This document shows positions 37,549-58,334 of a stretch of 64,000 nucleotides of DNA, in pieces. The DNA lies in NCBI RefSeq assembly GCF_004364805.1, contig NZ_SOAP01000002.1:496001-560000 (forward strand). Reading direction: 5' to 3'. The translations under genes were made by a program, and so were the position numbers. How positions within the stretch are numbered: the first letter of the stretch is position 1; every line of letters begins with the position of its first letter. The notes beneath the pieces are model-generated. The model worked only from the letters and a program-made list of their open reading frames with translations. It was not told the origin of the DNA and made no database searches. This stretch comes from Pelagimonas phthalicica. Its GTDB lineage: Bacteria > Pseudomonadota > Alphaproteobacteria > Rhodobacterales > Rhodobacteraceae.

Positions 37549-38970
37549 GTGAAATGGAACAGCTTTATGCAACATGATCGAGATCTGGCTGCGCCCGATA
37601 CGACAGATGAACTTGGCAAATTAACCAAGGCCGCGACAGGCCTTGGCCGCGAAACTGTGGATATTGGCGGTTTTTTGCAGGATCTGGATGATCGCTGTCA
37701 CGCTCAGTTGGATAATCTTGGGGGCGTGAAAACCCATACGAACAACCTGGCAACCGTGTCCGAACGCATGGTCGATGCCGTCAAACGGATGACCACTGCT
37801 GCGGACGATGCTATTGGAAGCATTGGAAAATCCACCGATCTGATTGCGCAGAATGGCCAGAATGCCCAGGACTTGGCGGAATGGGTCCGGTCGGTTAATG
37901 CCGAAAGCACCACGGTCGAGGAAATGCTTCAGGCGGTCCGCAGTTCAAACACAGAAATTTCCGACATCGCTTGGCAAGTCCACATTCTGGCCGTGAACGC
38001 CAAGATCGAAGCAGCGCGCGCTGGCCCAGCAGGCAAAGGGTTTTCAATCGTGGCCGATTCGGTGTCCGAACTTAGCCAAAAGACGGCTGATGCCGCGGAT
38101 ACAATTTCTTCCACGGTCAAACGCCTGTCAGAATGGATGGCGCGATTGCATCAAGGGGCGCAAACGACGTCAGAAAAAGCAAATCAGGTGTTGGACCACA
38201 GCAGCGACGCCGACCAGGCCCTGAATGAAATCCAACAATATATGGGCACATTGCGCGATGATGCTCATGGGCTTAGCGATGAAACCAGTGCGGCGCAAAA
38301 CGCGGTTCATCAAGTCGGCGATGTCGTCACCAGTCTGATCTCCTCGGTCACGGATGTGGCCACCGGCGTTGACGAAGCGACACGGCGCTGTGACAAGCTC
38401 GTCGATACCTCGGAAAACATCCTTCAACACGCTGTCGCGCTTGGCGGCAATGGCGACGATTCAGGGATGATCACCTTGGTGCAGGACACGGCCGGGCGCA
38501 TTAGCGAAGTGTTTGAAACCGCCATCAAAAGCGGGAAAATCTCGCTCAACCAAATGTTTGATGAGACATATCAACCCATTGCGAACACCGATCCACAGCA
38601 GGTGCAAACGGCCTTTACGCGGTTAACCGACAATGTCCTGCCGGCGATCCAGGAACCTTTGCTAGAGGCGGATGACAACATCGTTTTCTGCGCTGCCATT
38701 GACCGCAACGGCTACTTGCCGACACACAATAAGAAATTCTCACAACCACAAAGCAGCGACCCCGTCTGGAATGCCGGGAACTGTCGCAACCGGCGCATTT
38801 TCGATGACCGCGTTGGGTTGAAAGCCGGGCAAAGTGAGGCACCTTTCCTGTTGCAGGTCTATCGGCGTGATATGGGGGGCGGCAATTTTGTCCTGATGAA
38901 GGATCTTTCGGCCCCTATTCGTATCCAAGGCCGCCATTGGGGTGGGTTCCGTATCGGTTACAAGATCTAA
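37549..38970 (+). CDS. Soluble methyl-accepting chemotaxis protein
   Basis: 473 residues from GTG (AGAGG 9 bp ahead); ATG at 37567 is an alternative. No transmembrane segment. The long coiled coil includes the signalling tip near NTEISDIAWQVHILAVNAKIEAARAG (pieces at about 140-165), then SIVADSVSELSQKTADAAD. The C-terminal part (about 380-470), FCAAIDRNGYLPTHNKKFSQ to GRHWGGFRIGYKI, resembles a PAS/Cache-like sensory module placed after the coil. It is a cytoplasmic receptor; the signal and Che partners are not in the window. Confidence 0.85.
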   Translation: MKWNSFMQHDRDLAAPDTTDELGKLTKAATGLGRETVDIGGFLQDLDDRCHAQLDNLGGVKTHTNNLATVSERMVDAVKRMTTAADDAIGSIGKSTDLIAQNGQNAQDLAEWVRSVNAESTTVEEMLQAVRSSNTEISDIAWQVHILAVNAKIEAARAGPAGKGFSIVADSVSELSQKTADAADTISSTVKRLSEWMARLHQGAQTTSEKANQVLDHSSDADQALNEIQQYMGTLRDDAHGLSDETSAAQNAVHQVGDVVTSLISSVTDVATGVDEATRRCDKLVDTSENILQHAVALGGNGDDSGMITLVQDTAGRISEVFETAIKSGKISLNQMFDETYQPIANTDPQQVQTAFTRLTDNVLPAIQEPLLEADDNIVFCAAIDRNGYLPTHNKKFSQPQSSDPVWNAGNCRNRRIFDDRVGLKAGQSEAPFLLQVYRRDMGGGNFVLMKDLSAPIRIQGRHWGGFRIGYKI

Positions 38971-39027
38971 AGCGAAGCCTTTGGCGAAAGGCAGCGAAAG
39001 CTGATTCCAGGTAAATTGAAAACGCTC

Positions 39028-39062
39028 AAAAAAAACCGCCGCTCTCTGGTCAGAGGCGGCGG
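39028..39062 (-). terminator. Terminator of the small membrane-protein gene
   Basis: On the minus strand CCGCCGCCTCT pairs with AGAGCGGCGG (one bulge) and runs into eight T, about 125 nt past the stop of the 39-residue gene. The long 3' region between (39063-39185) holds no supported gene. Confidence 0.8.
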
Positions 39063-39185
39063 CAAGGCATGCGTATCTTTCGTGACCGTGACAGGTTTCG
39101 GCGTCAGGCAGGATACCGAAGGGGACAGGCAGGCATCGGGACAGGTGATGCAGTCAGGCCAGTGTCACGAAACGCAGGCAGAAAC

Positions 39186-39305
39186 TCAAAGCATGGGCAG
39201 ATGCAGGGCACCATAGAGGATCACAACCAAAGAAACGGCCCCAAGCCCATCCTTCCAAAGCGTGTGTTGCTGGCGGGTCAAGGCGGTTTTGACTGTCTCC
39301 AACAT
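39186..39305 (-). CDS. 39-residue single-pass membrane protein
   Basis: Too short for usual gene calling. An ideal ribosome site GGAGGA lies 6 bp before the ATG at 39305. The peptide has a polar N-terminus (MLETVKTALTRQQHTLWKDG) and a hydrophobic C-terminal segment GAVSLVVILYGALHLPML that can span the membrane once. It lies 98 bp downstream of recG on the same strand, with its own promoter overlapped by GTTC-type half-sites, and a strong terminator follows. Function unknown; SOS-induced small division inhibitors such as Caulobacter SidA are an analogy, not a homology claim. Confidence 0.7.
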   Translation of the reverse strand: MLETVKTALTRQQHTLWKDGLGAVSLVVILYGALHLPML

Positions 39306-39321
39306 GGCGCGTCCTCCGTGT

Positions 39322-39396
39322 GTTCCATCTTGTTGCCTCTTTGTTCTCACATTGTTAACCCCGTGTAAAGAATAAAATGAGAACAAAGGGGAACAA
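39322..39396 (-). promoter_or_regulatory. Promoter with phased GTTC half-sites, possible LexA control
   Basis: Minus-strand promoter: TTGTTC (39391-39396), 16-bp spacer, TATTCT (39369-39374). Around it, GTTC-like half-sites recur every 10-11 bp: on the plus strand at 39322, 39332, 39343 and 39354, on the minus strand at 39391, 39381 and 39370. Three pairs fit the alphaproteobacterial LexA form GTTC-N7-GTTC with one mismatch each (39332-39346, 39343-39357, 39370-39384). Regulation by LexA is inference. Confidence 0.5.
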
Positions 39397-39403
39397 AAGA
39401 AGG

Positions 39404-43614
<4,211 letters not shown>

Positions 43615-49116: not shown

Positions 49117-50754
49117 TCAGATCGAGCCGGTGCGCAGATTGACACCTGCATTGACCAGCGCGCTCCAGATCTTGGCATCGCGGCCATAGACATCGGGGCG
49201 ATAGTTCATCTGCCCTTTGGCCTTGGTAAAGGCGGTGCGATAGATCAGGTGCACAGGCACATCCACCTCAAGATCGACATGAGTTTCCTGACGCGAATTC
49301 AGGATGCTTTTGAAGTAGTTGACCGGGTCATGATGCTGTTTGGCCAAGAGCGCATAGGCAAAGTCATGCGGATCATCCAGGCGGATGCAGCCATGGCTAA
49401 AGGTGCGCACTTCGCGCGCAAAGAGGTGCTGCGATGGGGTGTCGTGCAGATAGATGTTGTATTTGTTCGGGAACATGAATTTCACAGATCCCAGCGCATT
49501 ACGCGGCCCCGGAGGCTGGCGCATGGAAAACGGGAAGGTGCGCGCGCTGTATTTGGCAAAGCCATGGCCACGGCTGACCACCCGGCCCCGCGCATCGATG
49601 ATCTCAAGATGGCCAACGGCACCGGGATTGCCACGCAGCAGCGGCAGATATTCATTCACGATGATCGACCGCGGCACATACCAGGACGGGTTGATGACCA
49701 TATGTTCCATCACATCGGAGAATTCCGGCGTGCGGCGGTCAAGGTCCTGATGACCAATCACCGATTTGGTTTCATAGGTCAGCTTGTTGTCGTCAAAGAT
49801 TTGCGCGTGGTAATTGACCAGGTTCACTTTGACATGACGTTTGCCTAAGCCCTCAGGCAGGTTGATCCAACGCTCGCGCTCCATGGCGACCATGATGGAT
49901 TTCAAACGCTGTTCCGGCGAGGTGTTGATCTGGCGCATGGTGCCAGAGCCGGCGACGCCGTCAGCCTTGAGCCCATGATCCTCTTGGAATTCCTGAACGG
50001 CGGCCTGCAGGGCATCATCATAGCGCGACGACAAAGAGCGGCGCATGTAGCCCATCTTGGTCAAACGATTGCGCAGGGCGACGACGGACCCGCCGCTTTG
50101 CCCCGGTTTCAAACTGCCCGACGGCACAACCGAGCCCCAACCGCCATGAGCGATGCGATGTTCCAGCTTGAGCTTGGCACGCATGAGGCGGGCATATTCC
50201 GGGCTGTTCGGGGCCAGGCTGCGCAGCACGGCGCGCGGATCTTCGTCGACAAGGCGTTGCAGCAGCATCTGACCGTCGCGATGCGGCAGTTTTCGTTTGA
50301 TACCGGAATCGATGCGCGCCGGGACAAGCATCCCGGATTGCAGATCACGGGCAAAACGCAGGTAGATCTGTGACAGTTCCACTTCGAGCAAGCCACGCTC
50401 GCGCCCGGTTTGCACCTGGGCGAGCTTTGCCATCAGCATGTCTTTATTATAACGGCTCACCGGAAGCCCGTGATCATCCGCCATGGAAAAGGCTTCGATC
50501 AAAGCCAGGCGGCGGGCGCGATCTTCGGGGGCGTCGCTGGTCCAGATCGGTCCGAATCCACGGGCGCGGTAAAAGGCGGCCATCTGTTCATCATCGCCCA
50601 ACTGTTCGGCCACGGCCTGTTTGTAGGCGGTGACCTGAAAGGAGAACCCATCATTTTCCTGTGCCTGCGCCGTTCCCGCCGCGAGCCAGATCGCCCCGGC
50701 TGCAATCAATGCGGTTGTCCAGCTTTTCCTGCGATGCATTGCTGAAAATTTCAT
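49117..50754 (-). CDS. L,D-transpeptidase (YcbB/LdtD-like)
   Basis: 545 residues with a signal peptide (about 1-31, ending AGTAQAQ). A peptidoglycan-binding domain (about 215-275, LRNRLTKMGYMRRSLSSRYD, GLKADGVAGSGTM) precedes the YkuD catalytic domain (about 305-490): the active Cys is in FSHGCIRLDDPHDF with His two residues earlier. It cross-links meso-DAP residues (3-3 bonds) or attaches proteins to the periplasmic wall. Divergent from a DUF882 peptidase that may act on the same wall. Confidence 0.92.
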   Translation of the reverse strand: MKFSAMHRRKSWTTALIAAGAIWLAAGTAQAQENDGFSFQVTAYKQAVAEQLGDDEQMAAFYRARGFGPIWTSDAPEDRARRLALIEAFSMADDHGLPVSRYNKDMLMAKLAQVQTGRERGLLEVELSQIYLRFARDLQSGMLVPARIDSGIKRKLPHRDGQMLLQRLVDEDPRAVLRSLAPNSPEYARLMRAKLKLEHRIAHGGWGSVVPSGSLKPGQSGGSVVALRNRLTKMGYMRRSLSSRYDDALQAAVQEFQEDHGLKADGVAGSGTMRQINTSPEQRLKSIMVAMERERWINLPEGLGKRHVKVNLVNYHAQIFDDNKLTYETKSVIGHQDLDRRTPEFSDVMEHMVINPSWYVPRSIIVNEYLPLLRGNPGAVGHLEIIDARGRVVSRGHGFAKYSARTFPFSMRQPPGPRNALGSVKFMFPNKYNIYLHDTPSQHLFAREVRTFSHGCIRLDDPHDFAYALLAKQHHDPVNYFKSILNSRQETHVDLEVDVPVHLIYRTAFTKAKGQMNYRPDVYGRDAKIWSALVNAGVNLRTGSI

Positions 50755-51107
50755 TCAAAAAACCCCTGTCACACGCGCCTTTTTATCTATTCTCTTTGTA
50801 TTCAAACACCTGTCCCTGTCCACTCACATTTGTGACAGAAGGTGAAAGGTTTTGAACGCGGGTCCGCCAGAACACGGCCAAGCTGTTGATTGCACATTCT
50901 CGCCACAGTTCATGGGGAATTTGGCAGAAAACTGCCCATTTCCCCTTGATCCTCGCAAAGCGGCCAAATCTTACTTTTTTAGCAACCCGATTCGTGCCAT
51001 ACCAATGTCGACATCTGGGGATAGATGGCAGGTTGTGATCCGCAACATGCAGGAAAGCATGGCGGGACACGCGAAACAAGGAATGGCGACGGGACAGGCG
51101 CTTAAAC
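50755..51107. promoter_or_regulatory. Divergent promoter region of two cell-wall genes
   Basis: 353 bp without a supported gene. The main element is a two-part hairpin at 50914-50945: GGGGAA/TTCCCC outside and GGCAG-AAAA-CTGCC inside. It has no T-run, so it may be a leader structure or regulator site. The rest should hold the two divergent promoters; I could not place them. Confidence 0.45.
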
Positions 51108-51677
51108 ATGGCAGATTTCAATTCAGGCAGCATTTCGCGGCGGGGCGTTCTTGGCGCATTTGCAGCGACGGCAGTGGCAGCAGCCCCAACATATACAAAT
51201 GCCGCAGGTTTCCTGCGCGGCGGTGGCGATATTCGCCGTATCCGCATGTATAGCGGGCGCACCGGCGAACGGATCGACATGATTTACTGGATCGAGGGCA
51301 AGTACCTTGCCGACGCGGTCAAGGAAATCAACTACTTCATGCGCGACTGGCGCACCAATGACGTCAAAAAGATGGACCTGCGCACGGTCGACATCATGGC
51401 GGCGGCGCATAACCTGATGGATGCGTCGGAACCCTATATGCTGATTTCCGGCTATCGCAGCCCGAAAACCAACGCGATGCTGCGCTCTCGTTCCAGCGGC
51501 GTTGCCAAGAATTCCCGCCATTTGCGCGGTCAGGCCGCTGATCTGCGTCTTGCCTCGCGGTCGGTCAACCAAATGTACAAGGCGGCCGTGTCCTGCGGCG
51601 GCGGCGGCGTGGGCCGGTATTCCAAATCCAACTTTGTCCATATGGATTGCGGCCCTGTTCGCAGCTGGGGTCGCTAA
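51108..51677 (+). CDS. DUF882 (YcbK-like) peptidase M15 family protein
   Basis: 189 residues. A Tat-type signal peptide (SRRGVLGAFAATAVAAAP, about 10-27) is followed by the domain with ISGYRSPKTN (about 122-131), the metal-binding SRHLRGQAADL and HMDCGPVRSWG at the end. The His and Asp set fits zinc M15-type carboxypeptidases such as YcbK/MepK, which cleave peptidoglycan cross-links. Acts in the periplasm. The adjacent divergent gene makes 3-3 cross-links, so a maker/cleaver pair is possible. Confidence 0.87.
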   Translation: MADFNSGSISRRGVLGAFAATAVAAAPTYTNAAGFLRGGGDIRRIRMYSGRTGERIDMIYWIEGKYLADAVKEINYFMRDWRTNDVKKMDLRTVDIMAAAHNLMDASEPYMLISGYRSPKTNAMLRSRSSGVAKNSRHLRGQAADLRLASRSVNQMYKAAVSCGGGGVGRYSKSNFVHMDCGPVRSWGR

Positions 51678-57590: not shown

Positions 57591-58334
57591 ATGCGACGCA
57601 AACTGGCCGCAGGAAATTGGAAAATGAACGGAACACAAGCATCGCTGGCCGAGCTGGCAGCAATGCAAACCGCCGTGACTGACGCTGTTGACGTTTTGAT
57701 CTGCCCTCCGGCAACTTTGGTCGCGACTGCGGCGGCGCAGTCTGGCGATATCGCCATTGGTGGGCAGGATTGCCACGCCAATGTCTCGGGCGCGCATACC
57801 GGTGATATCTCCGCCGACATGCTTAAGGATGCCGGCGCAGGATATGTGCTGACAGGCCATTCCGAACGCCGCACCGATCATTCAGAAAGTGACGCTGATG
57901 TTGCAGCAAAGTCCAAAGCTGTATGGGATGCGGGGCTGATTGCGGTGGTCTGCATCGGTGAAACCCTGGAAGAACGCGAAAGCGGCGAAACCCTGCGGGT
58001 GATTGGCCGCCAATTGGCGGAATCGATCCCGGATGGGGCCAGCGCTGCCAACACTGTCGTGGCCTATGAGCCGGTCTGGGCCATTGGCACCGGCAAGGTC
58101 CCCACACCAGAGCTGATCGCCGAGGTGCATGATTTCATGCGCGCCGAGCTGACCAAACGCTTTGGGGCCGAGATCGCAAATGGCACCCGCCTGCTCTATG
58201 GCGGCTCGGTCAAAGCGTCTAACGCGGTTGAGATCTTTGCCACCTCCAATGTGGATGGGGCGCTGGTGGGCGGCGCGTCGTTGAAAGCGGCGGATTTCAA
58301 CCCGATCATCGAGGCCCTCTCGGCAAGCGCCTAA
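57591..58334 (+). CDS. tpiA: Triosephosphate isomerase
   Basis: 247 residues. NWKMNG (Lys), LTGHSERR (His) and [12 protein letters not shown] (Glu) give the catalytic triad, with GASLKAADF for phosphate binding. It interconverts DHAP and glyceraldehyde 3-phosphate. The ribosome site GGGGAGAG precedes the start by about 8 bp. It is alone, followed by a palindromic repeat and a bidirectional terminator. Confidence 0.97.

Follow-up and report, generated by a model that had tools for sequence, protein, structure and literature searches.

A conserved gene beside recG in roseobacters with LexA-type operators, a predicted single-helix membrane peptide and a structured 3ʹ RNA

What does the short stretch beyond recG encode in roseobacters, and what controls it? 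We address this question for Pelagimonas phthalicica (Rhodobacteraceae), in a stretch of 64,000 nucleotides (nt) of contig NZ_SOAP01000002.1 (positions 496,001–560,000, forward strand). We call this whole stretch the window, and all coordinates refer to it. On its minus strand, an open reading frame (ORF) of 39 codons begins 98 nt past the recG ORF. An earlier note, made from the letters alone, took the span 39186–39403 to hold a small membrane protein under apparent SOS control. Comparison with related genomes gives good support, at the level of sequence, to a gene, its operators and an RNA; the coding capacity of the ORF, the operators, the RNA structure, the synteny and the complementarity described below all rest on such comparison. 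On balance, we favour the view that the locus is an SOS gene under LexA repression and yields two products: a membrane peptide holding back envelope growth or division, and a 3ʹ RNA that acts in trans.

The protein-coding part of the locus consists of two features:

39186–39305 (including the stop codon), minus strand: ORF of 39 codons for a predicted single-helix membrane protein, from profile, codon pattern and helix model
39312–39317, minus strand: Shine-Dalgarno sequence GGAGGA, seen in the sequence, which ends 6 nt ahead of the ATG

The encoded peptide is MLETVKTALTRQQHTLWKDGLGAVSLVVILYGALHLPML. The earlier note had described a 39-residue, single-span protein with an ideal ribosome site, and each of these points was borne out. 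GGAGGA is well placed relative to the ATG, one segment is membrane-like on the Kyte-Doolittle scale (highest 19-residue mean 1.98, residues 21–39), and AlphaFold2 predicts one helix (residues 2–35; mean predicted local distance difference test score 79, predicted template modelling score 0.37). The membrane-like part is the C-terminal half of the peptide, and the N-terminal part is basic.

The ORF is conserved far beyond the window. Our main set comprised 81 recG loci, i.e. the window and the best 80 of 532 from a recG-anchored scan of named genomes. A frame with the signature D..G...L[HYL] lies downstream of recG in 81/81 loci; a stricter first pattern missed eight of them. Among 156 pairs whose proteins are ≥75% identical, the differences at codon positions 1, 2 and 3 number 850, 396 and 2389, and this concentration at the third position argues that the ORF is under coding constraint and translated. 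Of 292 genomes sampled from the order, 266, in 110 of 113 genera, match a peptide profile built from 28 rows, mostly once each; 30 of the matches were taken as loci, and two protein loci were not used. Hence, the reading of the earlier note survived the check on protein-level conservation that it had proposed. Among the 28 profile members, D19, G22 and L34 are invariant, and L16, L26, L36 and P37 are nearly so. The profile missed 26 of the 292 genomes, and 14 of the 20 misses listed belong to a single genus, g7, in which the gene, to judge from this pattern, seems lost or much altered; one further g7 genome does match (E 3.4e-5). A class-wide search of 385 genomes gave six matches: five belong to this family, and the sixth, a weak one (E 0.0013), falls within a frame of 495 codons. 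Scans of three members found no NCBIfam match and, in Pfam, only sub-threshold matches far from the curated cut-off (best E 0.14). One record among the recG loci (L015), titled with the name of an actinobacterium, Enemella evansiae, carries a recG 77% identical to that of the window and the full roseobacter locus; this record is probably mislabelled or contaminated.

What controls the gene? GTTC half-sites are found on both strands within the stretch that separates recG from the ORF, and they form the following arrangement:

39370–39384, minus strand: operator 1, LexA-type, GTTCTCATTTTATTC, GTTC-N7-ATTC with one mismatch, 14.8 bits at 39366–39388
39365–39370, minus strand: CTTTAC, directly after operator 1 and conserved in 79/81 loci, a putative −35-like box
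39328–39350, plus strand: operator 2, LexA-type, GTTG-N7-GTTC core, 14.5 bits, with a GAGAACAAA-type half-site in 81/81 loci
39339–39361, plus strand: site 3, LexA-type, GTTC-N7-GTTA core, overlapping operator 2, 12.3 bits

The three pairs with one mismatch that the earlier note had reported are thus present, one on the minus strand (39370–39384) and two on the plus strand (within 39328–39361). We scored them with a matrix of GTTC-N7-GTTC sites found before recA (26/30 loci) and lexA (29/30) in the family; the 67 training sites include two from the genome of the window, and two sites inside recA coding sequence were dropped. When every position of the 64-kb window is scored on either strand, operators 1 and 2 and site 3 rank second, third and fourth. 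The top-ranked site (57616–57638, minus strand, 14.9 bits) lies within the coding start of a tpiA-like gene and is probably due to chance. Across the recG loci, all 81 downstream stretches exceed the 99th percentile of 560 background segments, and 17 exceed the background maximum. An exact GTTC-N7-GTTC abuts CTTTAC in 79/81 loci, the exceptions being the window and one other locus (L042), and a half-site on the opposite strand (GAGAACAAA, GGGAACAAA or GGAACAAA) is found in 81/81. Exact boxes are present in L002 and L003, the two remaining genomes of the genus, so the operator of the window's species appears to be a weakened copy, and its single mismatch would predict easier induction. A generic consensus scan reported neither a promoter nor a terminator of this locus; our promoter and terminator calls rest on conservation and on folding. 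Together, these observations strongly indicate SOS (LexA) control of the promoter.

The genome of the window also has exact boxes before lexA, recA and a gene that we read as ImuB-like. The last of these, GTTCTCTATTTGTTC (L119, position 1119, minus strand), is immediately ahead of the ImuB-like ORF and offers a natural SOS positive control. Another exact box, TTTTGTTCTATCAATGTTCTC (L127, position 1494, plus strand), precedes a short ORF (MSHETNQ...) that is a further candidate SOS gene of this genome. The lexA promoters themselves (e.g. L167, L180, L183 and L191) carry GTTC-N7-GTTC-N7-GTTC, three half-sites in register that hint at overlapping LexA sites.

Does the gene end with its ORF? The span of the earlier note holds a real ORF and a real promoter; it omits a conserved 3ʹ RNA at 39028–39184, and that account is incomplete because the predicted transcript additionally carries this structured element. 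The RNA occupies the stretch from the stop codon of the ORF to a strong terminator:

39028–39184, minus strand: structured 3ʹ RNA of 157 nt, ending in a terminator, from covariance model and covariation
39133–39151, minus strand: hairpin A, whose loop carries CCUGUCCC, from folding, covariation and alignment
39121–39132, minus strand: open linker CUGCCUGUCCCC, which contains GCCUGUCCC (39122–39130), from folding and alignment
39097–39120, minus strand: hairpin B, whose loop carries CCUGCCUG, from folding, covariation and alignment
39028–39063, minus strand: intrinsic terminator with a G+C-rich stem and a T run, from folding, covariation and alignment

Folded singly, ten sequences (the window and nine relatives) give broadly the same architecture, with an outer stem, hairpins A and B separated by a linker that is largely open, and the terminator. 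A first covariance model, built from these ten, matches 81/81 loci, always past recG and on its strand (E 2.9e-38 to 3.3e-5); the same search gave six extra matches, all with E 0.012 or worse. In the 34 of the 81 sources that are closest in architecture to the RNA of the window, on an alignment fitted to the model, 93.1% of cells can pair (81.3% after shuffling), and changes on both sides of a pair number 104, compared with 30.4 in shuffles and 6–16 with partners slid. A refined model matches 107 of 121 genomes of the order at E ≤ 0.01 (104 at E ≤ 1e-4) and matches the genome of the window once. We examined the surroundings of the RNA in 40 of these genomes: all 40 have the ORF and the RNA together with recG in the same orientation, and an operator scores above threshold in 38. 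In the two failures the ORF match fell 4 and 35 nt past recG, so the wrong stretch may have been scored. A search of Rfam 15 with 38800–39600, both strands, gave seven matches below the gathering score and none within 39028–39184. Six of these lie over the inverted repeats of the promoter and one beyond it, and the best (mir-3173, E 0.0096), which reached 28 bits where the gathering score is 84, was discarded with the rest.

The RNA is rich in short, exposed motifs. CUGYC occurs 3.9 times per element as against 0.9 times in dinucleotide shuffles, and its letters are 78% unpaired compared with 43% over the whole core (77 of the 81 elements; L028, L039, L065 and L078 excluded). The unpaired C-rich motifs are CCUGUCCC and CUGCCUG. 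CTGTCCC is found in 74/81 elements, where the coordinates of L028 and L039 are longer than the model match.

The surroundings of the gene are simple. In order on the minus strand are a response-regulator gene, which we read as CtrA-like, then ligA, recG and the 39-codon ORF. The next neighbour beyond the ORF is a convergent gene with an MCP signalling domain.

What might the RNA act upon? The best candidate lies ~12 kb from the locus:

51091–51099, plus strand: predicted target site GGGACAGGC, with 8 nt between it and the start codon of the Peptidase_M15_2 gene; pairing is a prediction
51108–51677, plus strand: Peptidase_M15_2 (DUF882) gene with a twin-arginine signal

We searched the three genomes of the genus for the complement of the RNA motif, GGGACAGG, 3–11 nt before an ATG. 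Compared by eye, the matches listed share one site in all three genomes, at 51091–51110 in the window. The counts against a reversed pattern (34 vs 6, 21 vs 5 and 25 vs 9) are an unfair control. There are 34 GGGACAGG-N-ATG sites in the window's own genome; 19 of these were inspected, including that of M15_2, and three of the remaining 18 start frames longer than 300 codons. In M15_2 leaders from 30 loci of 30 genera, including the window's own genome, GGGACAGGC is the top 9-mer of the 80-nt stretch around the start (13/30; 17/30 with at most one mismatch), and the permuted 9-mers that scored high in this test are the same motif in a shifted register. No more than 30 nt from the chosen ATG, GGGACAGGC is found in 12/30 genera vs 0/241 other starts, or 15/30 vs 2/241 with at most one mismatch. 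The GGGACAGGC leader of the window's M15_2 gene is common to many genera. Two extra genomes have GGGACAGGC (G101) and GGGACAGGA (G146) in their M15_2 leaders. Duplex energies were computed for five genomes (no RNA was extracted for two of seven), and in three of them 5, 0 and 4 of 200 shuffled targets were as low as the real one. M15_2 was found in none of the 40 fetched 20-kb stretches, so synteny did not serve to match RNA and target, and the sole exact match of the 12-nt complement GGGACAGGCAGG in the own genome is the RNA's own complement. We treat pairing of the RNA with M15_2 mRNA as a good lead, not a result. In the window, the M15_2 gene stands back to back with a YkuD L,D-transpeptidase gene (49117–51677). 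Elsewhere (L345, minus strand), GGGACAGGAGGA is 9 nt ahead of the ATG of a 552-codon frame and is possibly another pairing site.

How could these parts work together? In undamaged cells, LexA on the operators that flank CTTTAC would hide the promoter and keep the gene off. DNA damage would then yield a transcript of ~300 nt that encodes the inner-membrane peptide, with its basic N-terminal part and one membrane helix, and that ends in the folded 3ʹ RNA exposing CCUGUCCC and CUGCCUG. The basic N-terminal half and the hydrophobic end suggest an N-in orientation, and the invariant and near-invariant residues are a likely docking face. The peptide would most likely dock on a membrane partner in the division or cell-wall machinery and restrain it during repair. 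The RNA would work as a small RNA (sRNA) derived from the 3ʹ untranslated region (UTR), most likely pairing in trans with G-rich ribosome-binding regions, with M15_2 mRNA as the predicted target. From LexA binding, induction and the transcript ends to the peptide's partner, RNA–mRNA pairing and a phenotype that includes division arrest, these steps are what we infer from the conserved features. More tentatively, we propose a two-armed, family-wide SOS checkpoint in which the peptide restrains the division or wall machinery while CCUGUCCC seeds silence translation of M15_2; if true, DNA damage would slow wall cutting and division together.

Several observations weigh against this proposal. No tie to cell division emerged from any test that we ran, and every operator of the window itself has a mismatch. 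The exact GGGACAGGC 9-mer is missing in 17/30 genera; the duplex energy is weak in a fourth genome (13/200 shuffles as low) and no better than shuffles in a fifth (48/200); and a g7 genome with neither a protein nor an RNA match (G008) keeps AGGACAGGC before M15_2. As for the fold, the covariation count leans towards structure, because the alignment was fitted to the model and because unguided RNAalifold, given a plain MAFFT alignment, picked up the terminator and no other element. The agreement among the single-sequence folds is free of this bias.

The RNA could instead lack any role in trans: it might stabilise the transcript or belong to the terminator structure, or it might be a decoy for a CUGYC-binding protein, with GGGACAG before M15_2 a weak ribosome site kept by descent. 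CsrB-type RNAs are decoys for CsrA, decoys typically repeat short motifs in unpaired regions, and weak pairing of GGGA with the end of 16S rRNA is possible; the mixed duplex energies fit as well. The position of GGGACAGGC as the top 9-mer upstream of M15_2 in 30 genera, and its absence from 241 other starts, speak against such an RNA, which we consider a serious possibility, short of probable. It is harder to credit that the operators serve a regulator other than LexA, or that the locus is constitutive and its GTTC arrays incidental. The window has no exact GTTC-N7-GTTC pair on either strand, and among the 40 fetched genomes two promoters fall below threshold and two more exceed it without an exact pair. 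Nonetheless, the matrix derives from recA and lexA promoters, all 81 downstream regions are SOS-like, and the window's own genome has exact boxes before lexA, recA and the ImuB-like gene; we judge this explanation very improbable.

A different function for the peptide is that of an SOS-induced, membrane-active toxin, which would slow the cell by depolarising or disturbing its membrane; the role of the 3ʹ RNA would then be confined to tuning its own mRNA. Escherichia coli TisB/IstR-1 is such a pair, an SOS-regulated single-span peptide with control at the RNA level. The size of our peptide, its single helix and the SOS-type operators all fit, and DinQ is reported to be a toxic peptide under SOS regulation, with a single transmembrane segment and antisense RNAs (PMC3567139). 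In our judgement it would be unusual for a toxin to be inherited vertically, in nearly every genome and mostly as one copy, and no separate antisense RNA was seen, though no search was aimed at one. Furthermore, unlike TisB/IstR-1 and DinQ/AgrB, which share the single-span peptide and SOS-type control and have a separate antisense RNA, the RNA here appears to form the 3ʹ end of the peptide's own transcript, and it is conserved across the family. We regard a toxin as unlikely and prefer the two-product SOS gene.

For that reading, the closest parallels to the peptide are SidA and DidA of Caulobacter crescentus. As far as the cited text goes, these are damage-induced small single-span peptides, the former SOS-induced and the latter SOS-independent, that act on FtsW and FtsN (PMC4211646). 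Both resemble our peptide in having one helix, and SidA also in its SOS-type control; in contrast to both, the mRNA described here also bears a conserved structured 3ʹ RNA. The comparison with SidA is one of analogy only. For the RNA, the parallels are the mRNAs with 3ʹ UTR-derived sRNAs of Rhodobacter sphaeroides, namely ccaF1-CcsR1-4, ompR-1-SorX and RSP_7527-UdsC (PMC8625941, PMC9779115). The cited portions of these papers show, for ccaF1-CcsR1-4, a small protein and a 3ʹ UTR-derived RNA on one mRNA, as proposed for our locus; CcsR, SorX and UdsC differ in their host genes and stress control, and none is described there as LexA-controlled. UdsC, which is RpoHII-dependent and 67 nt long in that text, is ruled out as the identity of our RNA. 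The same text has the udsH promoter depend on RpoHI/RpoHII, names the host of UdsB solely as RSP_1771 and states no hosts for UdsD and UdsH, so identity with one of these is possible. The main text of a Ruegeria pomeroyi sRNA paper mentions neither recG, LexA nor SOS, and a Dinoroseobacter shibae network paper, in the part cited, names in-silico LexA sites without mention of recG (PMC6473078). Our literature search, which covered open-licence papers without their supplements, found nothing on this gene. As far as we have seen, SOS-induced small membrane proteins and 3ʹ UTR-derived sRNAs are known separately, and their union under LexA-type operators, as part of a family core, is undescribed.

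What would such a gene mean for roseobacters? The gene belongs to the core of a major marine bacterial family, mostly as one copy; it lies beside recG behind SOS-type operators and lacks a Pfam, NCBIfam or Rfam match. Should the two products act in the way proposed, a single SOS transcript would unite checkpoints at the peptide and RNA levels, and would tie DNA damage to peptidoglycan remodelling. The locus makes the halt in growth or division of roseobacters after DNA damage directly testable.
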